Origin: Trichormus sp. M33_DOE_039
GTDB taxonomy: Bacteria; Cyanobacteriota; Cyanobacteriia; Cyanobacteriales; Nostocaceae
DNA: 54,919 nt
Assembly: GCA_015296085.1 (NCBI GenBank)
Contig: DVDT01000081.1
Coordinates: 1 to 54,919 of the forward strand
Reading direction: 5' to 3'
Positions 1,643 through 45,068 of the stretch are shown here, in pieces. The position numbers and the translations under genes were made by a program. The first letter of the stretch is position 1; every line of letters begins with the position of its first letter. The notes below the pieces were generated by a model. It saw nothing but the letters and a program-made list of their open reading frames with translations. It did not search any database and was not told the DNA's origin.

Positions 1643-2214
1643 TGATTTGTCAAGAGTTATTAGTCATTAGCCAATGGGTATGGGGCATTGTATTTTGCTT
1701 CCCCTACCTCCCCTGTATCCCATGTTCTCTCTGCTTACCTACACCTAAATTCATCCTGCCACTATGCAAGGCCTGTCCCCTTGCCTATAAAGTCCATCAC
1801 ACAAACTACGCACTGTAGACTATATTAAGAAATGTCAATAATACGCTGTTGTTATATTTGGTGGCTTGAACAATGTTGCCTTGTAACTCAAGTTACTAAC
1901 TTACTATCAATTTCCACTAGTGTTTCCTCAGAGAAACACATGGTTTATGTATCATCTATTTTGTCTCGGTATGATCATGCTTAACATAAATTCTTGTATC
2001 ATCTCGCTTATACACTTTTTTACCGTTACTAACTCAAGTAATCTTTAAGACGAGTTCCACTTCCTGAGAATGATATTTCTGATACACTAATGAACCGAAT
2101 TCTACGAGAGTCTATAGTAGGTAAGTGGAAAATTTTCCTTGAGCGCAGCTAATGATAATAGGCTAGTATTTGGTCAAGCCTAGACAAAATCATTATTTCT
2201 AAATCAATATCAAT
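1643..2214. other. intergenic region between divergent genes
   Basis: About 570 bases with no convincing reading frame. It separates the minus-strand ycf20-like/glyK unit from the plus-strand lipoprotein gene and must hold both promoters. It is AT-rich toward the plus-strand gene; I could not single out a secure promoter motif or RNA gene. Confidence 0.4.
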
Positions 2215-2838
2215 ATGAATTCTTCCGTGTATCGTAACGCTGCGGTGACAGCTTGCTGTTTTGGGCTACTGGGGCTACTACTAGGATGCCTAGATATGAG
2301 TGTATCTTTTGAGACAGCAAATTCTGATACACCATCATCTTTATCTACTGAAGTAATCACACCCAATCAAGATTTAGTATCGCCTGTGGCCTCGACAGAG
2401 ACTAGTTCTCAAACCACCCCCAATTCCAGCACCCCCAGTCACAAATTAGAACAAAATACCCAAAAAACTATTTCTGTCCTGGCATCTCGTCAAGCCGGAA
2501 ACAGTAATACTAAGTATTTAGGTGATTTGCGTATGAGCAATCAAACAGATCAGCCTGTGCGATTAGCTCTGTTGGCGCGACAGTCAAATCAGAAAGGTGC
2601 TGTTAAAGAAACCACGGATATTCCCGCTCATTGGGATTTTGATCCCCAAGAAGGTAGTGCAGAAGGCTTAATTCTGTCTCTACCCCAAGGCAACCTCAAA
2701 ATAGAAGCAGGAGATATTTTAGTAGCCTTTGCTCAAGACGGTTCTCGCCGCTACTGGGGGCCGTATGTTGTGGGGGAAACATCCTTACCTACCTGGGATG
2801 CCCAAAAGCGAGAATGGGTACTGGTAATAAGTGAGTAG
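2215..2838 (+). CDS. predicted lipoprotein of unknown function
   Basis: A 207-residue protein with a lipoprotein signal peptide: a short N-terminus, a hydrophobic core and the lipobox LLGC with Cys at residue 25. It should be lipid-anchored at a membrane face. Residues about 30-80 are a Ser/Thr/Pro/Gln-rich linker. The remaining part (about 98-207) looks like a compact beta-rich domain with the conserved-looking stretches LGDLRMSNQT, HWDFDPQEG and RRYWGPYVVGE. I do not recognise the family. It stands alone, upstream of a repeat block and a GT39 glycosyltransferase on the same strand. Confidence 0.72.
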   Translation: MNSSVYRNAAVTACCFGLLGLLLGCLDMSVSFETANSDTPSSLSTEVITPNQDLVSPVASTETSSQTTPNSSTPSHKLEQNTQKTISVLASRQAGNSNTKYLGDLRMSNQTDQPVRLALLARQSNQKGAVKETTDIPAHWDFDPQEGSAEGLILSLPQGNLKIEAGDILVAFAQDGSRRYWGPYVVGETSLPTWDAQKREWVLVISE

Positions 2839-5121: not shown

Positions 5122-8100
5122 TTATCCTCGTCGCATCTTGATACTTAAGGATTGATTAATCTGGTTTAATAACTCTTCCATTGAGGTAGAACGAGGGACG
5201 ATTTGGGTAGCGATCGCCGTTAAAACAGTTTCTATAGATTCTATTTGACTTTTTGCTCCCTGCCCGCGTTTCTCTTGAGCAACTTTAGTTCGAGAATTAG
5301 TGGATGAGCGATGTAATCTTTGATCTATGACTAAAATAGGGGATAAATTTGATGATAAATCTTGTAAGGTTTTTAGTGCTTTCAACACTTCTGGTTGAAT
5401 ACATGAAACGTCTAAACAAATGAGTAGTAAATCTACACTTTGGTGACGCATCTGTTGTAAAACTTCTGCCCAACAACGTGCTATCGTCGCTTTGAAGCCA
5501 GCTGTTTGCAAATACTGAATTAGGGCTTGAAACCATTCTGTGCCTCGTTCAGCATTTTCTTGACTGAGAGAAGAATTCTTTTCTTTATAACCCTTGACTT
5601 GTTTACGCCTGGACTGTGGCAAGTCCTGTAGCATAGTTAAATCTACTACTAAAATATTCGGGGGATAGCAGATCCCAGAAGCAATTTGCAGCACGGACAA
5701 TAAAGGATCTTTTTGATTGCTATTGCTATCGTCTTGATTGAGTGGTGTTAAGCAAGGAAACACAGACAAACCAGGAATTTGGGATGCTGCCAAGGTAGTA
5801 ACAACATCACAAGTTACTAAAGGTAAGCCAGCTAACCGGGGATGCTGAGTTAATTGTTGTAGGTAAGTTTGTGCCAGAGAACTGTCTACATCCAGCAAAA
5901 CTACATCAAACTGCCAAACTCTGGCCAAAAGTTCCGCTTGGTCTAAGTCATCTACTTCAATTACCCGATGTTCGTGTAATGAGGGGTGGGGATTGATTGA
6001 TTGTGATTCAGGATCGACTAATCGGAGAATTCTGAGGAGTTTGTGGGGCTGAATTTCTTCATGATTATTTAAACTAGGTTGCTGTTTTGTGGTTGGCGCA
6101 CATAGTTTGTCTAATAAAGGTGTCAAAAACTGGGATTCTACTGGCAAATTCAAGAACCCATCAGCTTGGTTTGCCAGTGCTTGTTCTTTGTCTGCGCCTG
6201 TAGCTGTGACAATCACAGGAAGATGGCGCACGACGGAATCAGATTTCAGTAATGTCAGCACATCCCAGCCAGACAACAAGGGTAAGAGGGGATTTAAAAA
6301 TATGGCTTGTGGCTGCAAGCGACGGGCTTTTTCTACGGCTTCTGTTCCAGAACGAGCTATTACCACCTGATAACCATGATTTTTGAGTTGTTCGGTTAAA
6401 TCTTGAATATATCTGGCTACAGTCTCCACTACCAGCACTAAGCGTTGGGAAGAGACGGGTTGATGTTTCCCGGTCTGACTGACAAGCTGACGCATTCCCA
6501 AATTTTCGCTATTGTTCGCCTCTGTGGTTTTATTCTCGGATTCAACAAAGCCTGTCGTGGGAGGACTTGGTGGTAAAAGTAGCGTAAATTGACTACCTTG
6601 GCCTTCCTGTGATAAGAAACTGACATCACCACCGTGGAGACGAGCTAAAGCTCTGGTTAAAACTAATCCCAAGCCTGTACCTTCAAACTGACGAGTCAGG
6701 GGATTTTCTAGTTGTTGGAATTTTTGGAAGATCAAATGCTGTTGGTGTTCGGGAATACCGATACCTGTATCCCAGACAGTAAAGGCAATCCATCCTTCCC
6801 AAAGATTGACTCGTAAGCCGATTTCGCCGGATATTTCTGTGAATTTAAAGGCGTTAGATAATAGATGTACCAACATCTGACGCAAGCGTAGTTCATCGGC
6901 GGTGATCAACTCTAACCCTGGTTCAATCGACATTGTAAAGGTAGGTTCTGATGAACGAGGTGGAGATTTTTGCGTCGTCGATGTATTTTTGCTGGTTTGG
7001 TTGTGAATAGCTTTGGCTTCTGAGAGGGCGCGATCGCACACAGATTGGATATGGACAGGTGCTAGAGCCAACTCCATTTGTCCCGTTTCCATGCGGGTTA
7101 AGTCTAAAATGTCGTTGACTACACTCATTAAATGGCGGCCGCTTTGATGAATTAACCCTGCATATCGGGCTTGACGTTCATTAAGTTCGCCTAACTGCTG
7201 ATCAACTAATAACCGCGATAATCCCAACACAGCTGTCAAGGGGGTTTTGAGTTCATGGCTAATACAGGCTAAGAACTCATCTTTTAAGCGGTTCAGTTGA
7301 ATGAGGTCGGCATTTTTGGCTGATAGTTCTTTATAAAGTTGTTGTTGTTCAGTGACATCAGTTGCTGACACCAACCACAGGTTATCTTCGCCTAGTGTCG
7401 CTGCTGCATCACCATGAGGAAATTTTAAATCTGGACTATCTAAAGGAATTTTTGTAAACTGCCAAACTCTCTCTTGACCACTCTGCACTTCCACAATGCA
7501 GGTACAAGTACCCAGATGACTATCTAGGAAACAGCGACCTGTGGCTGTTTTGTTCTCGGATTGGGGTTCTTGTGGGTTATATGTTCTAAAAGCTGGTAAG
7601 TCGGTGATTGGTAAGGTGTCATTTTGATGGAAAATCTTGCCGTAACCACGAGCATACACTTTGGCTGCTTTGGGGTTAGCGTATTCTGGTTGTTTAATGC
7701 GGGTAGCAGCTAAAATGGCCTCCACTTGTTGTCTAATGCCTTCGGGATCTTTTAATGTTCCCAATTGTTGCCACCAAGCGAGGTTTTGGGTTAACACTAG
7801 ACCCGTACTTGTTTGCAACATTAGAGGCCAAGGTAGCTGTTCTAATAGTTGGATGAGTGATTTATATCCTGGATTTTGACGTTGTTTCAACCGCGATCGC
7901 CGGATTCTCCCATCACCCATCATGGCGGTATCTTGATGTATGGGGGCTGATGTTTTCAAGCTGGAGTAGGGAAGGGCAACTTGTGCTTTGGCCAGCACAC
8001 TTAAGAGGCGGACACTATTAAGTAAGCCCAAGAATTTGCCATCAACATCGACCAAGACACACTCTAATTTATTGGGGATGTGAGCTGTTTGATCGCTCCA

Positions 8101-8409
8101 CCATGAACTTAATTGCTCTACACAATGAGTAGCTGGTAATATTTGTATTGGCTCAATTATTGCTTGACCCAATACAGAGAGTGGCTGCTGTAAATTTACA
8201 AATTCCCCTGCCCCGGCGTTGAGCAAAAACTGCTGTGTTAAACGTGCCGAGTACAGCACCCCGATGGGACGCTGGTATTGATTGACAATGATTAAGCGAT
8301 CGCATTGCTTCTGCTCAAACGTCTCTAGCGTCATCGCCAGAGTAGCAGTTTCTGAACAACTATAACCAGTTGTTAGAAATTCATAAAGCGGGTACTGTAG
8401 CATTGACAT
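5122..8409 (-). CDS. CBS-domain hybrid sensor histidine kinase with degenerate receivers
   Basis: A 1095-residue cytoplasmic hybrid kinase. In order: two CBS-like modules (about residues 1-65 and 76-145), a PAS-like region (about 185-360), a HisKA domain with H385 in FLACISHELKTPL, and an HATPase domain with N-box LLSNAFKF, G1 DTGIGIP and G2 GTGLGL. Three receiver-like modules follow (about 655-775, 790-900 and 920-1060). In the first the acidic pair is replaced (LVVET) and the phospho-acceptor is Asn706 (FLNPLLPLLSG); the second keeps an Asp in VVLLDVD but lacks the early acidic pair; the third is also degenerate. No membrane segment is visible. The gene is divergent from kaiA, the arrangement I recall for all2883 in PCC 7120. 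A clock-related role is suggested only by position. Confidence 0.87.
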   Translation of the reverse strand: MSMLQYPLYEFLTTGYSCSETATLAMTLETFEQKQCDRLIIVNQYQRPIGVLYSARLTQQFLLNAGAGEFVNLQQPLSVLGQAIIEPIQILPATHCVEQLSSWWSDQTAHIPNKLECVLVDVDGKFLGLLNSVRLLSVLAKAQVALPYSSLKTSAPIHQDTAMMGDGRIRRSRLKQRQNPGYKSLIQLLEQLPWPLMLQTSTGLVLTQNLAWWQQLGTLKDPEGIRQQVEAILAATRIKQPEYANPKAAKVYARGYGKIFHQNDTLPITDLPAFRTYNPQEPQSENKTATGRCFLDSHLGTCTCIVEVQSGQERVWQFTKIPLDSPDLKFPHGDAAATLGEDNLWLVSATDVTEQQQLYKELSAKNADLIQLNRLKDEFLACISHELKTPLTAVLGLSRLLVDQQLGELNERQARYAGLIHQSGRHLMSVVNDILDLTRMETGQMELALAPVHIQSVCDRALSEAKAIHNQTSKNTSTTQKSPPRSSEPTFTMSIEPGLELITADELRLRQMLVHLLSNAFKFTEISGEIGLRVNLWEGWIAFTVWDTGIGIPEHQQHLIFQKFQQLENPLTRQFEGTGLGLVLTRALARLHGGDVSFLSQEGQGSQFTLLLPPSPPTTGFVESENKTTEANNSENLGMRQLVSQTGKHQPVSSQRLVLVVETVARYIQDLTEQLKNHGYQVVIARSGTEAVEKARRLQPQAIFLNPLLPLLSGWDVLTLLKSDSVVRHLPVIVTATGADKEQALANQADGFLNLPVESQFLTPLLDKLCAPTTKQQPSLNNHEEIQPHKLLRILRLVDPESQSINPHPSLHEHRVIEVDDLDQAELLARVWQFDVVLLDVDSSLAQTYLQQLTQHPRLAGLPLVTCDVVTTLAASQIPGLSVFPCLTPLNQDDSNSNQKDPLLSVLQIASGICYPPNILVVDLTMLQDLPQSRRKQVKGYKEKNSSLSQENAERGTEWFQALIQYLQTAGFKATIARCWAEVLQQMRHQSVDLLLICLDVSCIQPEVLKALKTLQDLSSNLSPILVIDQRLHRSSTNSRTKVAQEKRGQGAKSQIESIETVLTAIATQIVPRSTSMEELLNQINQSLSIKMRRG

Positions 8410-9063
8410 AAGGCTTTGGGGGTCATTCTTCTTGTGAACGCCTCTGGCTTCACCATCAGCACAGGGGCAAATAGCGATCGCGCCTGAAGCAGTATTCTTT
8501 CAGAAGACTCATATCAGCGATCTTGTCCAGCTTTTACACTATTGAATTAATGGAATTGGTTCTCTAGAACACGGGTGCTTCATTTCAATAGTCAGCCAGC
8601 TGCGGCCTGTTACTTGACCACGTTCAAATCTCTTTGAACAGCCATGACCAGTTTGCCACTGGCATCTCAATTTTTCATCAATAGCAACAGCTAACACAAT
8701 TATGCCTCCAAAGATTCGCTTTAGAACCTTGAGGAATTATAATTATTGAAAATGCGACAATACTTTAAGTTCGTTTAAGTATCTTATCAAGGAGTAAAAT
8801 AGAAAATCCTTATTTAGACAGATATACATATGCAAATAATAAATTAAGTCATGTGTTTTCGACAACAAACCTGAGCTACGACTCAGCCATCCCCCCAATT
8901 CTTCGCTATCTCATATATATATAGTGATTGCGATTGAGATATTCGCTGATGTATACATATCTTGATGTAAATTTTTGGGTGAGTATGTGCTGATTTTTCA
9001 TCAACCATTAACTTTACTTTTAATCTTGCATGGTGATTAACGAGAGATATATTAAGTATGTAA
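8410..9063. promoter_or_regulatory. divergent intergenic region upstream of kaiA
   Basis: About 650 bases between the hybrid kinase and the first possible kaiA start. It is AT-rich on the kai side and should carry the promoters of both transcription units. An imperfect palindrome, TACTTTAAG-TTC-GTTTAAGTA (8761-8781), lies about 280 bases before the kaiA frame opens. I see no RNA gene or clear protein gene here. Confidence 0.4.
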
Positions 9064-33773: not shown

Positions 33774-34613
33774 ATGTATAACTACAACCAGTCTCCTTTT
33801 TCTTCCCCAGGATCTAACCCTGGTGGCTGGGAAATCCGGCGCGGACAGTATTTTAACTATGCAATGCCTCATGGTTGGCAAGTAGTTGAAGATGGTCAAT
33901 TTGCTGTTGTTCTTTCTTCCCCAGACAATGCTGCTTTGACAATTATGGTCGGAAATTCTGGATTGCCTGTAAATTACAATCCTTGGCAGTTTGTCTATGA
34001 AAAACTCTTAGCCATGCAGCCTTATGAACTACAGATGAGTCAACCCCGTCAAGCTCAACCAATGGCTGGATGTGCGATCGCTTACCAATGGGATTATACA
34101 TACTATTTCAATGGTATCCTTTACCGAGGGGTAGCTAAGTGCAGCGTCATATATACCTATAACATTTGTACAATGGTGATGACTTGTGCTGCTTCCCATG
34201 AATCGCAATGGTCTAACTATGCTTCATGGTTGCCACAAGTAGCAGATCAAGTTACAGCCACAAATGGGGCTGCATTTGGAATCCAGGGGATAATGGCGCA
34301 GAACATAGAAATCTCGCAAACAGAGGGGCAAAAGTTAAGGGAATATCGCGAATGGTCAGAACGTACTTGGAACGAGGTAAACCACCAACGCCACGAATCT
34401 ATAGATCGTCAAAACTTCCATTTTCGAGAGAATCTGGGCAATGTCACAACCTGGACAAACTCGTATGGATATCCCACTGTTGAGCTACCGACAAGCTACA
34501 ACTATTTTTGGATGAACCGTCAAGGACAAATTTATGGTACGAATGACCCCAGTGAGAATCCTAATGTCGGCTCAACTCAAGATTGGACAAGAATGAATCG
34601 GTATCAGCCCTAA
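33774..34613 (+). CDS. uncharacterised protein at start of GTPase/WD40 cluster
   Basis: A 279-residue protein I do not recognise. Residues about 18-165 begin GGWEIRRGQYFNYAMPHGWQ and look like the beta-rich fold of proteins that start with an F-x-x-x-x-P-x-G-W motif (DUF1795/PsbP-like), an impression only. A helical stretch at about 185-215 (TEGQKLREYREWSERTWNEV) and a Tyr/Asn/Trp-rich end (SYGYPTVELPTSYNYFWMN) follow. There is no signal peptide or membrane helix. It ends five bases before the likely GTPase start, so co-expression with the GTPase is very likely, and a shared role can be inferred. Confidence 0.72.
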   Translation: MYNYNQSPFSSPGSNPGGWEIRRGQYFNYAMPHGWQVVEDGQFAVVLSSPDNAALTIMVGNSGLPVNYNPWQFVYEKLLAMQPYELQMSQPRQAQPMAGCAIAYQWDYTYYFNGILYRGVAKCSVIYTYNICTMVMTCAASHESQWSNYASWLPQVADQVTATNGAAFGIQGIMAQNIEISQTEGQKLREYREWSERTWNEVNHQRHESIDRQNFHFRENLGNVTTWTNSYGYPTVELPTSYNYFWMNRQGQIYGTNDPSENPNVGSTQDWTRMNRYQP

Positions 34614-34618
34614 ATGAT

Positions 34619-35593
34619 ATGAATTTATTACCTACAACTACCCCAAAAACATTTAGCCTGTTAAGTATTGGTCAACGAGGAGTAGGCAAAACGGTTTTTC
34701 TTGCAGGGAGCTACACAGAGTTACATCCTGATAGTAACGCAGACAATCCTCAACAGTTATGGTTCGATTGCCAAGATAGTGAAGTTCAAGCCAACCTGGA
34801 AAAAATTAAAAACCATGTAGCTCGTACTGGTTCATATCCACCCCCCACAATTAAAATTACTAACTTTAACTTTAGTTTGCAACGTCAAACTAAGTCAGGA
34901 CAGGAAACAGTATGCAATTTTCGCTGGTGGGACATTCCCGGCGAACTATGTAATATTCATAATCCTGAATTTCAAGAAATGATCCTGACTTCTAACGGTT
35001 GCTGTGTATTTATTAATGCGTATGCTTTAATACATGATCCAGATTACCCAAAGGTAATTGAGGATATCTACAACCAAGTGGCAGCGATCGCTTCTGTAGT
35101 TTATAAGTATAATATACCGTATGCTTTTGCACTGATTTTAACTAAGTGTGACTTGCTGGAAATCAACCCAGCCACACAACTACAAATAGAGGAAAACCTG
35201 AAACCTCTGACCATCTACCTGGATACTGTGAAAGCAAGCCATCAAATCTTCTATTCTGCTATACCTGTTGTGGCTGTAGAAGGTGTTTCTCGTCTCAAAG
35301 CTCAAGGTGCGGCTAACCCTCTCCTCTGGCTGCTATCACAGATCAATCACAAAGATAACGGTGCATCACTATCGAATTTAGCCAGTGAATCAGCCCAAAG
35401 TATATCCAACAGTGAGACCATACCACCAAAAAACCGCAGGTCGATTCTAGTCGTGTATTTGGTGAGTGTCATTTTACTAGGGGCGATCGCTTCAGTGTTT
35501 TTTGCTATCCATAGACTGACATCTACTCCCCAACCCAATCCTGCAACAGAACAATCGCCAAACCAAACTCCTGAAAATGATGTTGCTAAATAA
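34619..35593 (+). CDS. GTPase-like protein with C-terminal membrane anchor
   Basis: About 324 residues from the ATG at 34619; a TTG at 34583 would overlap the upstream gene. Visible nucleotide-binding motifs are G1 SIGQRGVGKTVFLAG, a G3-like WWDIPGEL and a G4-like LTKCDLL. Near the C-terminus is one transmembrane helix (SILVVYLVSVILLGAIASVFF) followed by a short Pro/Gln/Asn-rich tail. Membrane-anchored GTPases of this build are core parts of the GTPase-centred conflict systems described by the Aravind group, where a neighbouring partner carries a GTPase-associated domain. Both neighbours fit that picture. Specific function is inferred. Confidence 0.78.
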   Translation: MNLLPTTTPKTFSLLSIGQRGVGKTVFLAGSYTELHPDSNADNPQQLWFDCQDSEVQANLEKIKNHVARTGSYPPPTIKITNFNFSLQRQTKSGQETVCNFRWWDIPGELCNIHNPEFQEMILTSNGCCVFINAYALIHDPDYPKVIEDIYNQVAAIASVVYKYNIPYAFALILTKCDLLEINPATQLQIEENLKPLTIYLDTVKASHQIFYSAIPVVAVEGVSRLKAQGAANPLLWLLSQINHKDNGASLSNLASESAQSISNSETIPPKNRRSILVVYLVSVILLGAIASVFFAIHRLTSTPQPNPATEQSPNQTPENDVAK

Positions 35594-35689
35594 TACTCAC
35601 AAGACTTACACAATAAGACTTTTTAATTTGGGAGGATGTAAGGGGATCAGGGTTTAAACACCTATACACGGCAGTTTGCTCAAGTCAGG

Positions 35690-35760
35690 AAACCCTTTCG
35701 GCACTTCCTTCAAGTCGGGCATTGCCCGCCCAGCGCAGTGTCTCCCCAACGGACTGCCTC
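35690..35760. repeat. dispersed intergenic repeat, copy 2
   Basis: CTTCCTTCAAGTCGGGCATT followed by GCCCG, and CGCAGTGTCTCCCCAACGGA followed by CTGCC, match the block near 3013-3099 almost base for base. The repeat provides an ATG at 35738 that opens the frame of the next gene 40 codons too early. Confidence 0.8.
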
Positions 35761-35857
35761 ACCACACAACTACTGCCCCTATCCCCCTATTTCCCCATTC
35801 CAAATCCTTGATTTTTGTCACTCATGCGTAAGTCCTAACTCAGTTTCCCAGATTAGT

Positions 35858-37669
35858 ATGGTCTCTTTGCTCCTAGGTCAACTTTTACATACCAGTTTTC
35901 CTGTCGTGGGATTTAGAACCGTGGTGAGTGGAGAGATTCCCCCGGAAGTTCAGCAAGCCTTCATCGAACAGGTAGTCTATCAATACTGGGATTCCTATGA
36001 TCCACCCAGCACAGGATATAGGGCTGCTTATCTATATCAGCTGACCACAGAGCAGAGTTTGTTTGGTTGGTTATACAACGATGGGCTAGATGACTTTGGG
36101 CGCAATGATGTTCCTTACTTCATTTGTTATTATTTAGCGGGTAAATTACAGCCCTTCCAACTGGAAAATATTTTTATTTGCTTATGTACTGGGCCCGTCA
36201 GGCTCATCGACAGACACGACCACCCTGATTTACTAGATAGCTTAGTTATACCCGACTTGTGGAGTTACCAACCTGCGAGGATTGGGGTGAAAATTCCTCA
36301 AGAGATGATTGAGCAAAGTCGAATATCCGTTGAACATGGAGAATTGCTCAATTTGTTTGTCTTTACGGTTGAAGAGAAAATACAAGACAGTTCAATTTCT
36401 GATGGTAATTTATTGTCTACAACCATCACTAAAAAAATAGATGGTTTACTCTACACTCAGGATTCCTTACCTCATGCCATCAGTCCACCAGAAACAATTA
36501 GGACATCTTTACAAGATGCGCCTGTGTCTCTACCTTCAGCAGAAGATTATCAACAGATACTCTTAACTAAAACGCGCTTACGAGATAGCCAAAAACCCGT
36601 TGTTCCCTCACCTGGAAAACTAACTTTCATGTTGGGGATCATTCTCAGCAATGTTTTGCTCCTCACTTTAATCATGGTCGGCTACTACATTTTGAAAGTC
36701 GCACCTGTAAACACTCCTGTTCCACAAAATCCAGATTCTTTCCTGCGTCTAAATCCGAGTTTGAAGACAAAAAATCAGATCGTTGTCAAAACTCTCAGTG
36801 GTCATGGAGATGCGGTCTGGTCTGTTGTTCTCACCAAAAATGGACAGACTTTGGTTAGTGCTAGTGCAGATCAAACTATCAAAGTGTGGAATCTCAACAC
36901 AGGGAAGATAATACGCACCCTTTCAGGACACAGTAATATTGTCAGGGCGATCGCTCTCAGTGCAGATGAACAAACCCTGGTGAGTGGGGGTGGAGACAAC
37001 ACAATTAAAATTTGGAATTTTCAAACCTTTGAGTTGATGAGGACACTCACTGTTGATTCTGCTCCTGTTTGGTCTGTTGCAATCAGCGATGATGGACAGA
37101 TTCTAGTGAGTGGCAATGGAGACGGCAGTATTAAAATCTGGAATTTATATACTGACACACTACTACAAACTATTCCAGGACATCAAGGTCGAGTTTTTTC
37201 TGTAGCTATCAGTCCTGATGGGAAAACCTTCGCCACTGGAGGAATTGACAAAACCGTGAGGCTTTGGGATTTACAGACAGGTCAACTGGTAAAAGCGATC
37301 GCTCAACATGAGGATGCAGTTAGATCCGTAATTTTTAGCCGCGATGGTCAGACATTGGCTAGTGCTAGTTGGGATCAGACTATTAAGATTTGGAATGTGC
37401 AGACAGGTGAACTGATCCGCACCTTAACAGGTCATACTGCAAGGGTGGTGACTCTGAGTTGGGGATTTGATGATCAAACACTAGTCAGTGGTAGCCTAGA
37501 CAATAGTGTGAAAATTTGGAATCTGCAAACAGGTAAATTAATCCGTACTCTTTCCGGTCATTCTGACTGGATTTTAGCGATCGCTACCAACCCTGCAAAA
37601 CAAATCCTAGTGAGTAGCAGTAAAGACAAAACCATCCGCATTTGGCAGATGCAATTCAATAATCGATAA
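35858..37669 (+). CDS. membrane-anchored seven-bladed WD40 protein with possible GAP1-like N-terminal domain
   Basis: About 603 residues from the ATG at 35858; the frame is open 120 bases upstream only because it runs through a dispersed repeat. Residues 1-165 form a globular domain starting MVSLLLGQLLHTSFPVVGF, with YRAAYLYQL and DDFGRNDVPYFICYYLAG, which resembles GTPase-associated protein 1 (GAP1-N) domains; this is from memory. A linker and one transmembrane helix (LTFMLGIILSNVLLLTLIM, about residues 255-280) follow. The C-terminal half is seven WD40 repeats, each ending IKIWN or similar, enough for one propeller. It follows the GTPase gene and probably works with it as a membrane sensor or scaffold. 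Confidence 0.8.
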   Translation: MVSLLLGQLLHTSFPVVGFRTVVSGEIPPEVQQAFIEQVVYQYWDSYDPPSTGYRAAYLYQLTTEQSLFGWLYNDGLDDFGRNDVPYFICYYLAGKLQPFQLENIFICLCTGPVRLIDRHDHPDLLDSLVIPDLWSYQPARIGVKIPQEMIEQSRISVEHGELLNLFVFTVEEKIQDSSISDGNLLSTTITKKIDGLLYTQDSLPHAISPPETIRTSLQDAPVSLPSAEDYQQILLTKTRLRDSQKPVVPSPGKLTFMLGIILSNVLLLTLIMVGYYILKVAPVNTPVPQNPDSFLRLNPSLKTKNQIVVKTLSGHGDAVWSVVLTKNGQTLVSASADQTIKVWNLNTGKIIRTLSGHSNIVRAIALSADEQTLVSGGGDNTIKIWNFQTFELMRTLTVDSAPVWSVAISDDGQILVSGNGDGSIKIWNLYTDTLLQTIPGHQGRVFSVAISPDGKTFATGGIDKTVRLWDLQTGQLVKAIAQHEDAVRSVIFSRDGQTLASASWDQTIKIWNVQTGELIRTLTGHTARVVTLSWGFDDQTLVSGSLDNSVKIWNLQTGKLIRTLSGHSDWILAIATNPAKQILVSSSKDKTIRIWQMQFNNR

Positions 37670-37918: not shown

Positions 37919-38662
37919 ATGTCTCAATTCGATCCGCCATCAACAAGCAACACATTTAATATTTCCGGTAGTTCGATTAAAAATTTGGTAGGTTCTGGTT
38001 CTATTTATGACAATAATGCAATTGCTGAAGCAAATAACCAGAATTCTCAAGCTCCCTTCCCACAAACTAACTCGAACCCTGATTTAAGTACAACACCCCC
38101 AGTAAAAACCGTTCTATTGTTAGCAGCAAATCCTATAGGTACAGATCAACTGCGCTTAGATGAAGAAGTGAGAGAAATTGATGCTGGGTTACAAAGGGCT
38201 AAACAGCACAATCAATTCCTACTCAAGCAGAGATGGGCTGTACGTACCAGGGATGTTTTGCGGGCTATGCTAGACTTCAAACCTCAGATTGTCCATTTTT
38301 CTGGGCATGGGGGTGGAGAAGCCGGATTAATCTTAGAAAATGAAACTGGGGGAGCAAAACCGGTCAGTGCCGCAGCGTTGGCGGGGTTATTTGAATTGTT
38401 TGCAGACCAAGTAGAGTGTGTAATCTTAAACGCTTGTTATTCAGAATCTCAGGCAGAAGCAATTAACCATTATATTCCTTACGTGATTGGAATGAACAAG
38501 GCCATTGGCGATCGCGCTGCAATTGAATTTGCTGTCAGCTTTTATGATGCTTTGGGATCTGGAGAATCTATTGAGTTTGCCTATAAGCTAGGCTGTAGTG
38601 CCATTCGCCTAGCAGGAATTGAAGAGTATTTAACACCAGTCCTGAAAAAGAAATCAGCCTAA
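37919..38662 (+). CDS. CHAT-domain (caspase-like) protease with N-terminal Gly/Ser/Asn motif
   Basis: A 247-residue protein. Residues 11-30 hold the motif NTFNISGSSIKNLVGSGSIY; a Asn/Gln/Pro-rich linker (about 31-58) follows; the CHAT domain occupies about 60-247. It begins VLLLAANPIGTDQLRLDEEV and carries the catalytic dyad His130 (VHFSGHGGGE) and Cys173 (ILNACYSE). CHAT proteases are separase/caspase relatives that act as effectors in bacterial defence and cell-death systems. The short motif plus flexible linker plus effector layout is that of amyloid-signalling effectors, and the motif recurs in the pentapeptide protein at 42897-45068. Convergent with the trypsin-LamG gene. The protease call is firm; the signalling role is inferred. 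Confidence 0.86.
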   Translation: MSQFDPPSTSNTFNISGSSIKNLVGSGSIYDNNAIAEANNQNSQAPFPQTNSNPDLSTTPPVKTVLLLAANPIGTDQLRLDEEVREIDAGLQRAKQHNQFLLKQRWAVRTRDVLRAMLDFKPQIVHFSGHGGGEAGLILENETGGAKPVSAAALAGLFELFADQVECVILNACYSESQAEAINHYIPYVIGMNKAIGDRAAIEFAVSFYDALGSGESIEFAYKLGCSAIRLAGIEEYLTPVLKKKSA

Positions 38663-38721
38663 TGTGTTTACAGCCACACTGGTTGACGTACTAGGATTGT
38701 CAGTTGACATGGAAGACACAC

Positions 38722-41700
38722 TCAACTTGTGGGCAGAATTGGAGACGGAGGAAACCATTCAGCCCCGTAAATTTTTCCATGATTATTGCTGGATTTAAAG
38801 TTACGTGCCTGAGTATTGTCTTGACCACCATCATCCAGTCGCCAGTAACCAACTAAATCTGACCAATATTGCTCTTGCTCATTCAATCGTTCTGAATCTT
38901 GTTTGCTCAACCGACGATACATATTCTTTTGGATTTGAGTCTGGGTTCGGGCTATCTTCCAGAGGCGAACCTCAGTAACTGCAATATTGTAATAAGTCTT
39001 TTCTTTTTGGGATAGAGCTAGCATTGCTTGTTGATTACAACCAATGATGAAAGGTTCTTCGAGGTTGTCCAAAGGCCCTGTAAACAAACCTATACTCTTT
39101 GTTTGTCCTGCAAACATGATAGTCTTGCACTGCCCTTCTACAACACAGTCTTGAATTCTGCCGTCAATATAAATCGAAATCTCATGCGATTTATCCCACG
39201 TGAAAGCAACATGATGCCATATTTGATCCTGTAGAGCATTATCCTTAGTGTAAATAACTGTTTTCTCAATTTGTTCTTTTTCTGTATTTTGGATATTAAT
39301 TTTACGTTGCAACTTAACTTGAATTTTACCTTCATACCAAGATAGAGAATAACCATTTGAATTATCATCAATCCGGCTGATTATCAAGCAATTACCAAAT
39401 TTGTGTTTAATCCATACTTCAACAGTAATTGCATCAGTAACATTCAAGCTTTGATTGTTTTCTTGCCCATTGCCACACTCTACGTAATGTTCACTATCAT
39501 TAAATTTCAAGCCGCATGGCATAGGTAAAGCAGGAGATTGAGAGGCTCTTATGCTTTTTGCCTTAAACACTACACCATAACTACCTTGATTATTTTCAAT
39601 CAGACTATATGCCTTTAACCATCTTCCACCATAAACTACTCCATCTTCATCTCTAGAGTCTTTCATAGAGGCACTATTAACGGCTCTATTTCCCTCTTCT
39701 TCATCCAGTCGCCAATAACCAGTCAAATTTGACCAATTTGGATCGTCATTGCTCAACTGGGACTTCATATTTTTTTGAATCTGCTCTGGAGTACGAGCTA
39801 CATTCCAAAGACGAACTTCCGCTATAGAACCATAAAAATATCTACCATAATTTTGAGAACAACCGATATTCAAACTCACTTGAGGAATACCTACAGAATC
39901 TCCCAAAGGTGTAGATTTTCCCTCTGAAGAAGGGTTAATTAATTGTTGTTCTCCGTCAATATATACTTTTATTTCCGCACCTTTTTCCCAGGTAAATGCT
40001 ACATGATGCCAGTCTTGATCATCTAAAAAATTATTATTAGTATCAACAACTATTTTTGACTGATTAGCAGTATTTTGTAACTCTACACGAATCTTCCCTT
40101 TACACCTCCATATAGAATAGCCATCTTCATCCCAACCACCACCTTGATGAACAATCATTCCATTTGAGCCTTCATTACCGTTTTTAACCCAGGCTTCGAT
40201 GGTAATTGCTGTAATTTCATTTTCATTCTGCAAAAATTTAAATTTGCTACAGTTAACATGATCACTTAATCCATCCAATAACAAACCAAAGTTGGGCTGA
40301 GGTGGTAAATCTGAGATTTTGCTGCTTAAGATAGGGCTGTTGGAGATTTCGCTTTTAAGGTTATAGACCTTGTTACCAACGGATTCTTCCATCTGCCAGT
40401 AACCAACTAAATCTGACCAATAGGCATCTTGCTCAGTCAATCGCTCTGAATCTTGTTTGCTCAATCGACGGAACATATTTTTTTTAATCTGTTCTGGAGT
40501 GCGAGCTATATTCCAAAGACGAACCTCGGTTATAGAGCCATTGAAATAATATCTGCGGGCTATTTCAAGACGAAGCTTGGCACTAGGCCGATTAAAATAA
40601 TCTTTAATAATAAAACGGTTGTCAGGATCTTCTTTAATCTTTTTAAATAGATTTTCAATAATCTTTTCAATACTCTCAGCACGACCAATGGTCAAACTTA
40701 CATTGGTATTATCGATATTCTCTAAAGAAAATTTAGAATCACCTAGTTCAAAATGAGCTTTTCTTTCTACTCCATCAACATATATTTTTATACCGCTATT
40801 TGGCTCCCAAGTAAATGCTATATGGTGCCAATATGGATCATCAAGAAATGTCTGGTCTGTATCAAAAATTATTTTTCTATCATCACTACCTTTTAACTCT
40901 ACGCGGATTTTCTTCCCGTACCTCCATATACAATAACCAGGCTCGTCAAAACTTCCGCCTCGATAAAAAATTACTCCATCTGAATTTGGATCATTATTTC
41001 TCACCCAAGCTTCAATCGTAATTTCTCTATCAATTTTCAAGCTCTCATCGTTACCACAGTCAATATAGCTTCCCTCTCCATCAAATTCCAATGCAGATAT
41101 TAAGGGTGGGTAGTTCAGCTCTTCCGCAGTCACTACAAAATCTTCAATAAAACTTTTGATTTTAGAGTCACTAACACTTTTTTTCTTCAGATCCTCAATC
41201 AATCGACAAATTCTAATCCCTTGTTGCTCAACAGCTAAATCAGGATGAGCTTGCTGAACAGCATTTTTTGAATCATCTGCTTGCTTAATTATGGCATGGT
41301 GTAATGCAACTAGTTGCCAGCGTGTATTAAAGACTGGACTACCAGAAGATCCATAATCAGAATCTGCTTGATAACGGACATAATTTTTGTAAAGACTATT
41401 GACCTCGTTATCATTTAAGACAATTTGTTTGCGCTTGCCTTTCGGATGTTGAATAATAATCAGTGAATCCCCAATTTGTGCTTTTCTATACTTTGTTATA
41501 TTTATAGGCTTTCCTGAATTCATAACGTCTTTCTCTTCCAAAAGTGTCATGAGATTTATTAACTCTTGAGGAACATCATCAAACTTGTTTTCAGGATGCC
41601 ACACTTCAATGGAATTGGGATTTTTATTGACAATATATCCTTGACATTCTAGAGTTCTTATGATTTCTACTAAATCTGATTCAGTAGAAACACGATCAAT

Positions 41701-42552
41701 ATTAGCTGGAAATTCTATAAAGCTTAACCTAGGTTTAATGCTCTCAAAGTCTTCAATTAATTGTAGCCAACCCAGTTCGTATCCCGCTTGACGAGTAAAA
41801 ATGTCAGACTTTAACTGCACCAGGGTATAGTCCAAACTGGGTTCAGAAATAAATAAAATTCTAGGATCAAATTCGTAGTCAATCGACTTTTGTAGATCGC
41901 CCCGGTCATTTTCAACGTAATTAAATTGGGCAACACACTGTTCAGCTATGGCTGCATTAGGAATTACATGATGGTTGGTAAGCAAATGGCTACCACCGAC
42001 TAAGAATCCTGTCCCAATAGGGATAGGATTTACCTTAGCCAGTTGTTGCTCAGTAATGTTTTTGAGGACTGCTAACGCAGTTTTTTGCCCTGAATTAATA
42101 GCACTTTTAGTTTCTTGATCAAATAGTTCGTCAGCAACCTGTTCTGGAATTGAGAACACTTCAATGACTTTATCCGAAGTCTCAAAATTATTAGTCAAGT
42201 TACTCAGTTGTGCAATTGCCGCTTCTATATCTGCAACAAACTCTTGAAAGGCTTGAAGGGAAAAGTATCTAGCAATCCGACATACCGAAATGCTCTGCTT
42301 GATTCCATTTTGTAAGAAATAAATAGGTAGAAAATCTTCTTTGCGAATAGCCGCAGTCACTAGGGTATGTGACTCCATCTGTGATCTTTCTTTGACAATT
42401 GCCAGAATTTTGTCAAATGCTTCTGATTCAAGAGGGGTATTACCGACAAGTCCCCCAATAACCGAAACCTCAAATGGGCCAATGCTGATAGTGCCGTGTT
42501 TCAACCAATACTCTTGAATTGTTGAGGTATTTTGTTCAAAATTGCTACCCAT
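38722..42552 (-). CDS. trypsin-like protease fused to three LamG/concanavalin-like domains
   Basis: A 1276-residue protein without a clear signal peptide. Residues about 1-115 form an unrecognised N-terminal domain (GTISIGPFEVSVIGGLVGN). A trypsin-like domain follows (about 170-450) with the triad His195 (LLTNHHV), Asp241 (SLDYTLVQL) and Ser403 (DYGSSGSPVFN). Three LamG-like beta-sandwich domains lie at about 485-685, 745-960 and 1010-1260; each opens with a LEFDG/CG-type strand, has (I/V)EAWV or (I/V)EVWI, and closes with EVRLWNIARTPEQI and a GYW motif. Cyanobacterial proteins of this type occur in conflict islands, where the protease is thought to be triggered by ligand binding. It is encoded opposite to its neighbours. 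Confidence 0.85.
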   Translation of the reverse strand: MGSNFEQNTSTIQEYWLKHGTISIGPFEVSVIGGLVGNTPLESEAFDKILAIVKERSQMESHTLVTAAIRKEDFLPIYFLQNGIKQSISVCRIARYFSLQAFQEFVADIEAAIAQLSNLTNNFETSDKVIEVFSIPEQVADELFDQETKSAINSGQKTALAVLKNITEQQLAKVNPIPIGTGFLVGGSHLLTNHHVIPNAAIAEQCVAQFNYVENDRGDLQKSIDYEFDPRILFISEPSLDYTLVQLKSDIFTRQAGYELGWLQLIEDFESIKPRLSFIEFPANIDRVSTESDLVEIIRTLECQGYIVNKNPNSIEVWHPENKFDDVPQELINLMTLLEEKDVMNSGKPINITKYRKAQIGDSLIIIQHPKGKRKQIVLNDNEVNSLYKNYVRYQADSDYGSSGSPVFNTRWQLVALHHAIIKQADDSKNAVQQAHPDLAVEQQGIRICRLIEDLKKKSVSDSKIKSFIEDFVVTAEELNYPPLISALEFDGEGSYIDCGNDESLKIDREITIEAWVRNNDPNSDGVIFYRGGSFDEPGYCIWRYGKKIRVELKGSDDRKIIFDTDQTFLDDPYWHHIAFTWEPNSGIKIYVDGVERKAHFELGDSKFSLENIDNTNVSLTIGRAESIEKIIENLFKKIKEDPDNRFIIKDYFNRPSAKLRLEIARRYYFNGSITEVRLWNIARTPEQIKKNMFRRLSKQDSERLTEQDAYWSDLVGYWQMEESVGNKVYNLKSEISNSPILSSKISDLPPQPNFGLLLDGLSDHVNCSKFKFLQNENEITAITIEAWVKNGNEGSNGMIVHQGGGWDEDGYSIWRCKGKIRVELQNTANQSKIVVDTNNNFLDDQDWHHVAFTWEKGAEIKVYIDGEQQLINPSSEGKSTPLGDSVGIPQVSLNIGCSQNYGRYFYGSIAEVRLWNVARTPEQIQKNMKSQLSNDDPNWSNLTGYWRLDEEEGNRAVNSASMKDSRDEDGVVYGGRWLKAYSLIENNQGSYGVVFKAKSIRASQSPALPMPCGLKFNDSEHYVECGNGQENNQSLNVTDAITVEVWIKHKFGNCLIISRIDDNSNGYSLSWYEGKIQVKLQRKINIQNTEKEQIEKTVIYTKDNALQDQIWHHVAFTWDKSHEISIYIDGRIQDCVVEGQCKTIMFAGQTKSIGLFTGPLDNLEEPFIIGCNQQAMLALSQKEKTYYNIAVTEVRLWKIARTQTQIQKNMYRRLSKQDSERLNEQEQYWSDLVGYWRLDDGGQDNTQARNFKSSNNHGKIYGAEWFPPSPILPTS

Positions 42553-42896
42553 AATTACTTACCACAACAGTATAAAATGATTGTGAGCGAAGTTGAGGAT
42601 GATTGAACAAGAAAGTTGCATTCGACTAGCACTTATGCAACAACTTATACTAAAGACAAGTAGCATTCTAGCAGGCAGTCAAAGAACATTCCCGAATTTG
42701 AATTTTTGTAAGCAATATTTGTCAAATGCGGAAGTTTTTACACTATATGCTACGAAAATGTTTAAAGTTCATGATCCTTGATAGGATTACGGAATTACTA
42801 GTTATATAAATAAATACACATTTATTGTGTACGCTTTCAAAAATGAATGAGCCGATGAAAAGAAGCTAGTAAATCTGAATTCAAGTTCATGCTAGT
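42553..42896. other. intergenic region between divergent genes
   Basis: About 340 AT-rich bases carrying the promoters of the trypsin-LamG gene (minus) and the pentapeptide gene (plus). A 62-codon frame at 42593-42781 has no recognisable motif, so I do not count it as a gene. Nothing else stands out. Confidence 0.45.
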
Positions 42897-45068
42897 ATGT
42901 CAAGCACTCAACAGCCTCATTACACCAAAAATATCAAAAGTAAGCGTTTTAAGCAAGAATGTTTACACTTGGACTTGCAAAACACGATCGCGGGTCAAAA
43001 GCTTGTCGTTAAGCTAATCTTGTTACTACTGCTTCTACTACTTTGCTTTTTAGCAGTTATGATTGCGGGTTATGTTGGAGGATTAACAAGTTTAAACATC
43101 ACACGCGGTACAAAAGCACCTTGGGAATGGAGTGCGATGGCTGTTGTGACAACCGTTGTGATAGTAACCGCAATTCGTCGGCAATTACCTGGGATTTTGC
43201 TGGCATTTGTTCTGAGTTTTTGCACTGTTGCAGTAGTGCCAGAAATATTAGCTATGTTAGGTTTGATCAAATTTCCATCTTCTGCATTCTCTTTTAGCTT
43301 AACAACGCTTGTAGCGATCGCGTTTGGGTTAGGCATCAGCACGATTAGTTTTTTAGGAATTCGCTTTGTTTTAGCACTGACGGATATTTTATTTATTCAA
43401 TCGCAGCCTCTAAAACTACTTGGTATGCCGATTGTCATTGTGGCAGGAATTGTAGGTTCACTGGGAGCAATCTCTGGCGAATTGAAAGCACCAAATTCGG
43501 AATTTAGGACGATTTTGGCCATGTCAGCAGATGCGCGAATGCTGGTAATTGTCAGTGGCACACTGTATAGTCTCTGCTTGGCCTTGAGCGGCTGGTTAGC
43601 GAATTATCTTCGAGGTACTCCTTGGAACTATCCAAGTCTGCAAAGGTTGTGGGCGATCGCTGTTGGCTCTTGGTGGGGTACTTCGTTTGTGAACTTAGAC
43701 TTAAGCGGAGTCAACTTTCGGGGGGCAAAACTCGCTAATACTGATCTGCGCGCCCGCAAGCTTTATAGAACTTGTTTTCAACAGGCGATCGGGCTGGAGA
43801 GAGCAAGAGTAGACAATCAATATCTTGATTTAGAACACCCTAAAGTCCAGAGATTATTGATCTATGGAAGCAGTCATGATCGCAACTTTTGCGGATTCAA
43901 TTTACAGGGTGCATATTTACAGGGCGCAGATATGCGAGGGTTTGATCTCACAGATACCAACTTGACTGGATCGGACTTGAAGCGAGCTGATCTTAGAGAG
44001 AGTCTCTTAGTTCGCACGCAGTTAGCAGGTGCAGACTTTCGGGGTGTTGACCTACGAAAGAATGTCCTCATCGATGCCAATCTAACCGAAGCAGATTGTC
44101 GAGGAGCTGATCTGCGAGGCAGTATTCTCGTCCGCGCCCAAGTTGCACGCGCAGATTTTACCGGGGCTGACTTGACCGGGATTTGTATTGAGGATTGGAG
44201 CGTCAGCAGCAAAACCTGCTTTACAGATGTTCGCTGTGATTATATTTATCGAAAATATCAGGATGAACAGCCAATTGATCGCTATCCAGTAGACCGATAT
44301 TTTGAAACAGGTGAATTTGCTTTCCTTTATCAAGAACCCGAAGAGATGGTGGAGTTAATTTTCAAAGGAGAATTTGATTTTAGCGCGCTCAGTCTTGCTT
44401 TCTATAAACTTCAAACGGAAATGCCAGAATTAGACTTGAATCTCAAAGCGATTGAACAGAGGGAAAAGCTGTGGGTTGTGAAGGTGCGAAGTAATAGTAT
44501 CAACAATATTGAACACATAATTGAAGAACGTTTCATATCTGTTTATCAGGCAACTCATAACGAAACTACTGTTGAGACAGTGATTAAGGAATCTATCTAC
44601 AGAGATTACGAAGAAACTAGAAACCGTCTACAGGCAAGTGAACAGTTAGTTAGGCAACTTGCAGGGATTACAGGAGAGCAAGCAGAAGCATTAAAGGAAC
44701 TTAGTAAACGAGCGATGGGTAACAGCTTTTTTATCACGGGTAGTACAATTACCAACCTCGCAGGTTCTGGACAGATTGAATACAGAGAAGCTGCTGATCA
44801 AATTCGCAGTTTAATTACTAATAGTAGTGATCCCAGTCAGGTCATCACAATTCTACAAGGTCTGATCAACCAACTCAAAGGACAAAATATTGCCACTACC
44901 GTCAGTACACAGATTGATTTAATTCAACAAATAATTCTGGCTGAGGCAGGCAAAGATCAACTTTTCAAAAAGTTATTGCTTGAGCAAGGGCAACAAGTTG
45001 TCAGTGCTATGCCCAAAGATGAAATTGCCACTGCTATTCAAGCTGTGATTGCTCAACTCAAAGCATAG
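42897..45068 (+). CDS. multi-pass pentapeptide-repeat protein sharing a motif with the CHAT protease
   Basis: A 723-residue protein. About six hydrophobic helices span residues 38-245 (first: KLILLLLLLLLCFLAVMIAG). Pentapeptide repeats (A(D/N)LxG type) occupy about 270-290 and 325-435, e.g. LQGAYLQGADMRGFDL. A mixed domain at about 445-550 (EMVELIFKGEFDFSALSLAF) and a coiled coil (about 560-605) follow. Residues 609-629 carry the motif NSFFITGSTITNLAGSGQIE plus Tyr, closely similar to residues 10-30 of the CHAT protein; a helical tail ends the protein. It could be a membrane-bound sensor that recruits the CHAT effector through the shared motif; this is inference. No protein of this exact layout has a function I know. 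Confidence 0.83.
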   Translation: MSSTQQPHYTKNIKSKRFKQECLHLDLQNTIAGQKLVVKLILLLLLLLLCFLAVMIAGYVGGLTSLNITRGTKAPWEWSAMAVVTTVVIVTAIRRQLPGILLAFVLSFCTVAVVPEILAMLGLIKFPSSAFSFSLTTLVAIAFGLGISTISFLGIRFVLALTDILFIQSQPLKLLGMPIVIVAGIVGSLGAISGELKAPNSEFRTILAMSADARMLVIVSGTLYSLCLALSGWLANYLRGTPWNYPSLQRLWAIAVGSWWGTSFVNLDLSGVNFRGAKLANTDLRARKLYRTCFQQAIGLERARVDNQYLDLEHPKVQRLLIYGSSHDRNFCGFNLQGAYLQGADMRGFDLTDTNLTGSDLKRADLRESLLVRTQLAGADFRGVDLRKNVLIDANLTEADCRGADLRGSILVRAQVARADFTGADLTGICIEDWSVSSKTCFTDVRCDYIYRKYQDEQPIDRYPVDRYFETGEFAFLYQEPEEMVELIFKGEFDFSALSLAFYKLQTEMPELDLNLKAIEQREKLWVVKVRSNSINNIEHIIEERFISVYQATHNETTVETVIKESIYRDYEETRNRLQASEQLVRQLAGITGEQAEALKELSKRAMGNSFFITGSTITNLAGSGQIEYREAADQIRSLITNSSDPSQVITILQGLINQLKGQNIATTVSTQIDLIQQIILAEAGKDQLFKKLLLEQGQQVVSAMPKDEIATAIQAVIAQLKA

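Follow-up and report, generated by a model that had tools for sequence, protein, structure and literature searches.

Bacterial amyloid signalling sequences (BASS), for which Dyrka et al. 2020 is reportedly the founding paper, are the closest described counterpart of the locus reported here. As the cited passages describe them, BASS are motifs of about 20-40 residues common to the receptor and the effector of neighbouring genes (PMC7889193, PMC8086366, PMC9815663, PMC12261475); according to a review among them, CHAT and TIR domains also bear such motifs, less often, and the count of ten families is conservative. In the EAD/TRADD-N conflict systems an adaptor element is common to sensor and effector genes (Kaur et al. 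2020, 2021; PMC7159879, PMC8195603), and the conflict systems linked to diversity-generating retroelements are close in spirit (PMC10907252). The present locus is a cassette at positions 37919-45068 of contig DVDT01000081.1 (assembly GCA_015296085.1) from the cyanobacterium Trichormus sp. M33_DOE_039, and the whole contig of 54,919 nucleotides, read on the forward strand, is called the window. The conserved three-gene layout is effector, trypsin-like protease and receptor: a CHAT protein, a trypsin-like protein, and a membrane pentapeptide-repeat protein that we regard as hub or receptor. Cassettes of this kind occur in some filamentous cyanobacteria. Most likely, the membrane protein recruits and switches on the neighbouring, usually protein-cutting, enzyme via a peptide of 20-26 residues common to both. 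With a probability of roughly 0.55, the three genes would constitute one signalling cassette for motif-based, probably amyloid-like, effector recruitment in suicide or phage defence, as predicted from sequence. The features of the cassette are as follows.

37919-38662, plus strand: CHAT effector open reading frame (ORF), 247 aa, with N-terminal motif, N/Q/P-rich linker and CHAT domain at aa 57-218, in this order (Pfam CHAT E 1.1e-11, PADLOC chat 5e-18, PDB 8tl0_A E 2.3e-14)
37949-38023, plus strand: effector copy of the motif, 25 residues (profile match)
38722-42552, minus strand: third gene, coding for a trypsin-like protease of 1276 aa that contains several LamG/pentraxin-like domains (Trypsin_2 5.7e-18, Laminin_G_3 2.1e-57; synteny)
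42897-45068, plus strand: receptor or hub ORF, membrane pentapeptide-repeat protein, 723 aa (Pfam Pentapeptide 1.7e-30; orthologues found)
43002-43589, plus strand: about six hydrophobic segments, receptor aa 36-231 (Kyte-Doolittle scan)
43674-44201, plus strand: pentapeptide-repeat region, receptor aa about 260-435 (Pfam; extent by alignment)
44304-44531, plus strand: conserved region with no fold assigned, receptor aa 470-545; a helical-looking linker comes next (alignments, conservation)
44721-44798, plus strand: receptor copy of the motif, 26 residues (profile match; conservation)
44799-45065, plus strand: conserved C-terminal tail of the receptor, no fold assigned (alignment)

The cassette resembles BASS, as the sources above describe it, in the short motif common to neighbouring receptor and effector genes, which is present at 31 of 39 loci, and in its CHAT and TIR effectors, the less frequent BASS alternatives; no Bell domain was seen among the Pfam-scanned effectors. 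One defining feature of BASS is not shared, however, because the receptor class differs: the BASS receptor is a NOD-like receptor (NLR; NB-ARC or NACHT plus repeats) that carries the motif N-terminally, whereas the cassette receptor has transmembrane segments and pentapeptide repeats, no NTPase was found in it, and its motif lies inside the C-terminal part. The trypsin-like third gene is a further difference. Pfam detected no NTPase domain in the window receptor or in the receptors of loci L067, L073, L144, L137 and L146, and neither NB-ARC nor NACHT was matched among the motif proteins scanned, a subset of all motif proteins, which leaves the motif unsupported as a feature of NLRs. With the EAD/TRADD-N systems the cassette has in common caspase, trypsin and TIR effectors, pentapeptide repeats and cyanobacterial hosts (PMC7159879, PMC8195603), but its adaptor is a motif of 20-26 residues instead of a recognised folded domain. 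Pfam and NCBIfam recognised no EAD, TRADD-N or STAND NTPase in the window proteins, and a profile of receptor aa 459-607 gave no TRADD match in PDB up to E 1. No earlier description of the receptor-effector pair was found in the literature searched, subscription papers and the founding BASS paper being outside its scope.

An earlier reading of the window (the sequence-only reading) had placed one motif near the N-terminus of the CHAT protein and a second in the pentapeptide protein, aligned without gaps in proteins otherwise unrelated, and the ORF coordinates and residues confirm the two ORFs and both copies. The effector copy, CHAT residues 11-30, reads NTFNISGSSIKNLVGSGSIY (37949-38008), and the receptor copy, residues 609-628, reads NSFFITGSTITNLAGSGQIE, begins at 44721 and is followed by Tyr629; 12 of the 20 residues are identical in a gap-free alignment. 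In BLASTP of the CHAT protein against the receptor the motif stretch gave E 2e-4 and all other segments E of at least 0.12, so the remainder of the two proteins is taken to be unrelated, as had been claimed. The best ungapped 20-mer score between the two was 59, compared with a mean of 28.7 (standard deviation 4.0, maximum 44) over 300 CHAT shuffles; against the other window ORFs of at least 200 aa, with self-matches to the stop-to-stop versions of both genes set aside, it was 34 for the CHAT protein and 39 for the receptor. When the CHAT peptide was used as query against the 7.0-Mb genome, two places only were returned (E 1.7e-7 and 0.055). The DNA of the two copies is identical at 39/60 positions and uses different codons in 4 of the 12 identical residues, which argues against recent DNA copying, and recent duplication was rejected as the origin of the motif.

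Relatives of the receptor were collected from a search of 145 same-family genomes and a scan of named contigs, with more loci added via motif searches. The contig scan returned no relatives with a single receptor as query and succeeded with an alignment: 75 stretches matched the pattern and gave 26 distinct relative loci, from Nostoc, Scytonema, Calothrix, Fischerella, Mojavia, Iningainema, Symploca, Phormidium, Myxacorys, Argonema and other hosts. Receptor orthologues are about 620-730 aa long. Ten motifs, nine from receptors and one from the window CHAT, served as seed for a position-specific matrix, which located a second motif gene at 12 of 13 receptor neighbourhoods (L063-L075); the other, L064, is a 4-kb contig. 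None of 380,620 shuffled windows scored above 14 bits, and the linked motif copies scored 22.6-62 bits, with L073, at 22.6 bits, a doubtful case. A linked motif gene is present at 31/39 loci holding a receptor, a homologue or a fragment, which supports a signalling pair joined by a common motif, as the sequence-only reading had proposed. This count includes the doubtful L103 (the same locus as L073) and L102, where a contig end cuts the receptor ahead of the motif, and near-identical loci are each counted separately in both figures (L067/L094, L089/L096, L142/L143, and the L086/L087 receptors). As for the loci with no linked partner, L085 is a 4-kb contig, and its genome has the motif CHAT on another contig, L160, adjoining the trypsin-like gene; L137 and L146 are at contig ends, and the motif CHAT of the L146 genome is likewise at a contig end (L138); L092 has a run of about 4 kb of N upstream. 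No partner was seen at L093 (truncated receptor) or L107 (fragment), at L086 the trypsin-like gene is present and an effector was not found, and at L108 the receptor motif itself is replaced.

The motif profile was then searched against cyanobacterial genomes at the family, class and order levels, in sets that overlap and that include some genomes which had supplied motifs to the profiles; matches in the latter are expected because the profiles contain their motifs, and the informative result is the lack of matches elsewhere. The family search gave 28 matches in 14/145 genomes, namely 14 receptors, 13 effectors and one effector remnant; 12 receptor-effector pairs lay on one contig with their motifs at most 7 kb apart, one pair (G047) was split over two contigs, and one partner (G094) fell below the threshold. 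The class search gave 27 matches in 16/388 genomes, 25 of them in receptors or effectors and two marginal, in a near-identical pair of HI0933-like oxidoreductases, and the order search gave 24 matches in 12/388 genomes, 23 in receptors or effectors and one in another protein (G541, L158). The motif is thus rare and nearly confined to the receptor-effector system (28/28, 25/27 and 23/24 matches), and a motif scattered among unrelated genes, the outcome by which the sequence-only reading was to be refuted, was rejected, the matches being almost wholly in linked receptor-effector pairs. Nor is it a general feature of CHAT proteins, because CHAT relatives are far commoner, occurring in 111/145 family genomes. 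The L158 protein (7915-8721, minus strand) is of a different type and bears a short motif variant, FNISDSNIASVTGSG, ahead of a helical-looking tail. In the G141 remnant (L159:8321-8860, minus strand) a LamG-like end joins a caspase-effector tail plus motif, as if by deletion, and a search of the G141 genome found no motif receptor.

No part of the receptor is as well conserved as the motif (609-632): across 19 receptors its mean majority fraction is 0.89, compared with 0.37 for the transmembrane part, 0.61 for the pentapeptide region, 0.76 for aa 470-545, 0.50 for the linker and 0.64 for the C-terminus. The motif is internal to the chain, with the helical-looking linker before it and the conserved tail after it. 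The profile of aa 459-607 found no relatives in PDB, that of the C-terminal tail no convincing PDB match, and the window receptor matched none of the PADLOC models. In the same genomes there are also wider pentapeptide hub proteins (largest ORFs of L019, L027, L029 and L062) with other glycine-rich motifs in the same place. They have in common with the receptor the order of pentapeptide repeats, conserved region and glycine-rich motif, then a helical-looking tail or CHAT, but their motifs are of the types ..AQFGGGLV..QIGG.I.. and ..AKFGGGF..TQIGGTF.. instead of that of the cassette. The same glycine-rich motifs occur at the N-terminus of separate CHAT proteins (L036, L043, L052, L053); a second copy of the ..AQFGGGLV..QIGG.I.. 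type was not found in the four CHAT-centred stretches of 9-10 kb in which that type was matched.

The effector is less uniform than the sequence-only reading had it: in the window it is a CHAT protein with the motif at its N-terminus, by Pfam and PADLOC, while elsewhere it may be a caspase, a TIR protein or a fusion, and the motif may also follow the domain or lie between domains. The 31 linked effectors comprise 13 with the order motif-CHAT, nine with CHAT-motif (one doubtful), six caspases (Peptidase_C14) whose motif follows the domain, and single cases of TIR-motif (L136), CHAT-motif-TIR (L095/L148; TIR by Pfam, the CHAT part by BLAST to the window CHAT) and trypsin-motif-CHAT (L153). Types were assigned by Pfam, except for L084, L090, L094, L100, L106 and L143 (BLAST), L072 (from its sequence) and L096 (from its near-identity to L089). 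Effector folds change across the receptor tree while the motif stays: in a tree of 26 receptors, drawn up with L067, L105 and L106 left out, the caspase label needs two changes forced by well-supported branches, and all labels together need nine. The CHAT domain of the window effector scores 45.2 bits against PF12770, above the Pfam gathering cut-off of 24, and its catalytic residues are presumably His130 (SGHG) and Cys173 (NACYS). SAVED-CHAT proteases are activated by filaments; the window CHAT domain matches the PADLOC SAVED_CHAT model (E 2.3e-10) and the closest PDB chain to the effector is the CHAT protein 8tl0_A, but the effector has no SAVED domain and its linked partner is a membrane protein. 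Two further frames were observed: L145:7584-10658 (plus strand) holds a caspase domain, the motif and CHAT in one frame of 1025 aa, with no motif receptor in its 20-kb stretch, and the CHAT effector at L104:7832-8980 (plus strand) has a tail of about 150 residues after the motif that resembles, by eye, the tail of hub-family L023.

The effectors resemble known defence proteins in PADLOC (chat 5e-18, caspase 2e-14, and 1e-61 for the L136 TIR, which is of the ThsB type). At L108 (Symploca sp. SIO2C1) the receptor matches that of the window up to residue 597 with 48% identity, and another domain (1849-2559, plus strand) replaces the motif and tail. In NCBIfam this domain is matched best by a portion of 'anti-phage protein ProA' (E 4e-19; its 67.5 bits fall far short of the whole-protein cut-off of 1500); Pfam and PDB gave no match, relatives occur in 4/99 genomes searched (best 47% identity), and literature searches on the ProA-like domain and on SAVED-CHAT added nothing. 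The output at L108 would then have moved into the receptor chain. Because of the effector types and the L108 domain, the role of the cassette is most likely defence or suicide, by analogy with these proteins.

The trypsin-like gene at 38722-42552, between the CHAT gene and the receptor gene, was absent from the sequence-only reading and is part of the conserved cassette. In 25/31 linked pairs a homologue separates the effector gene from the receptor gene and runs antiparallel to the latter; at L084 only the LamG part was found between the pair by BLAST, and at L139 the gene lies beyond the receptor. Trypsin_2 was found in 16/16 scanned proteins of this type, with variable C-terminal modules: LamG, LamG plus WD40, PG_binding plus LamG, Amidase_3, SLH plus LamG plus WD40, or none known. 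With its enzyme part constant and its tail variable, the trypsin-like protein is similar to sensors of known conflict systems; by this likeness it is probably the sensor here, or else regulates the other two proteins by cleavage. Upstream, at 33774-37669, are genes for a 279-aa protein with no Pfam match, a weakly DO-GTPase2-like protein (below the cut-off) and a WD40 protein. Four of the five flanking window genes recur at none of the other searched loci and the fifth matches WD40 repeats only; the cassette was therefore taken as 37919-45068, and a wider operon, with the upstream 279-aa, GTPase and WD40 genes or the downstream glycosyltransferase genes, is unsupported.

The motif core is rich in S, N, I, G, T and F, 5% charged and almost free of proline (58 motifs, near-duplicates included), a composition that one would expect in amyloid signalling motifs. 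Very probably the motif links receptor and effector, and its amyloid nature is plausible from sequence. Physical contact, the beta or amyloid nature of the motif, the part played by the trypsin-like protein, the signal and the outcome all belong to the mechanism that we infer, which would run as follows. The motif of the membrane pentapeptide protein would become exposed and recruit the effector through like-with-like, beta-type and probably amyloid-like assembly with the effector motif; crowding would then activate the enzyme, which is CHAT here and a caspase, TIR or fusion elsewhere, and the outcome would most likely be cell suicide or defence against phage. The sequence-only reading, in which the membrane protein would sense damage or infection, is partly supported. 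A more specific formulation, which we offer tentatively and consider somewhat short of an even chance, is a three-gene, NLR-independent membrane signalosome of filamentous cyanobacteria, in which the pentapeptide hub would nucleate, through a new amyloid motif family, the amyloid-like assembly of interchangeable killer enzymes (CHAT, caspase or TIR) and a trypsin-like sensor with LamG, WD40 or peptidoglycan-type modules would gate them.

Several results weigh against amyloid-like recruitment by a three-gene cassette. The receptors L086 and L093 are partnerless, the motif effector L145 has no linked receptor, and a search with a profile of 16 trypsin-like proteins of the cassette type found no homologue at L104, L105, L106 and L136 in the fetched stretch. 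The cassette is likened to a bacterial amyloid signalling pair by description and not via the BASS1-10 profiles, and a PDB search with the motif profile brought up nothing but unrelated proteins, of which a putative lipoprotein came closest (E 0.0019 over 10 residues). Cognate motifs are more similar than permuted ones (70.4 vs 66.9, p about 1e-4, n = 25, with the near-duplicates L067 and L096, the receptor fragment L105 and the doubtful effector motif L103 left out), but p rises to 0.043 (n = 22) when the divergent L157, L140 and L142 are removed, and with receptor relatedness held constant a partial Mantel test gives r = 0.035 and p = 0.38. Covariation of receptor and effector motifs is thus suggestive only, and it was not accepted as strong proof of pairing because the partial Mantel test fails. 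At L157 both partners have a one-residue deletion in the same loop.

The alternative that survives best, which we consider unlikely, is that like-with-like beta contact through the motif leads to a finite oligomer such as a small beta-roll, with fixed numbers of receptor and effector in a joint assembly, and not to an open amyloid. The linkage, conservation and effector-exchange data fit it equally well, and the receptor motif sits within the chain, between helical linker and conserved tail, as an oligomerisation element might; in its composition and length, and in being placed freely at either end of an effector or between its domains, the motif is more like an amyloid signalling motif, a resemblance only (PMC7889193, PMC12261475). 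That the motif instead tethers an inactive effector at the membrane, from which the trypsin-like sensor protease would release it by cleavage and not by assembly, is improbable: the trypsin-like gene between most pairs and its variable, sensor-like tails suit such a scheme, but the linked pairs L104, L105, L106 and L136 show no such homologue in the fetched stretch, and the L108 domain inside the receptor chain suits an output slot better than a tether. It is more doubtful again, to the point of being hardly credible, that the CHAT or caspase enzyme recognises or cleaves the motif, with receptor and effector both as substrates; proteases make up most effectors, but the L136 TIR protein carries the motif with no protease domain in Pfam, and the entire 20-26-residue pattern is kept, with few charged residues. 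Chance or low-complexity likeness of a G/S/N-rich stretch, which the shortness and simple composition of the motif might suggest, is rejected with near certainty on the shuffle scores of the comparative matrix, the 31 linked pairs and the two copies in the genome.

Amyloid-like recruitment of the effector by the membrane protein remains our preferred reading. The BASS pairs described in the cited passages use NLR receptors, and the cassette has a membrane receptor class with no recognised NTPase and exchangeable CHAT, caspase-like and TIR effectors; if the reading is true, the amyloid signalling principle would be widened to non-NLR membrane receptors. About 30 natural receptor-effector pairs would then be available for work on specificity, on seeding and on swapping of effectors. 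CHAT and caspase genes of cyanobacteria that have so far gone unnamed gain a likely upstream partner, and the trypsin-like gene is singled out as a candidate for sensing. If the signalosome formulation is true, prokaryotes would have in the cassette a counterpart of receptor-driven amyloid death signalling that works without an NTPase switch.

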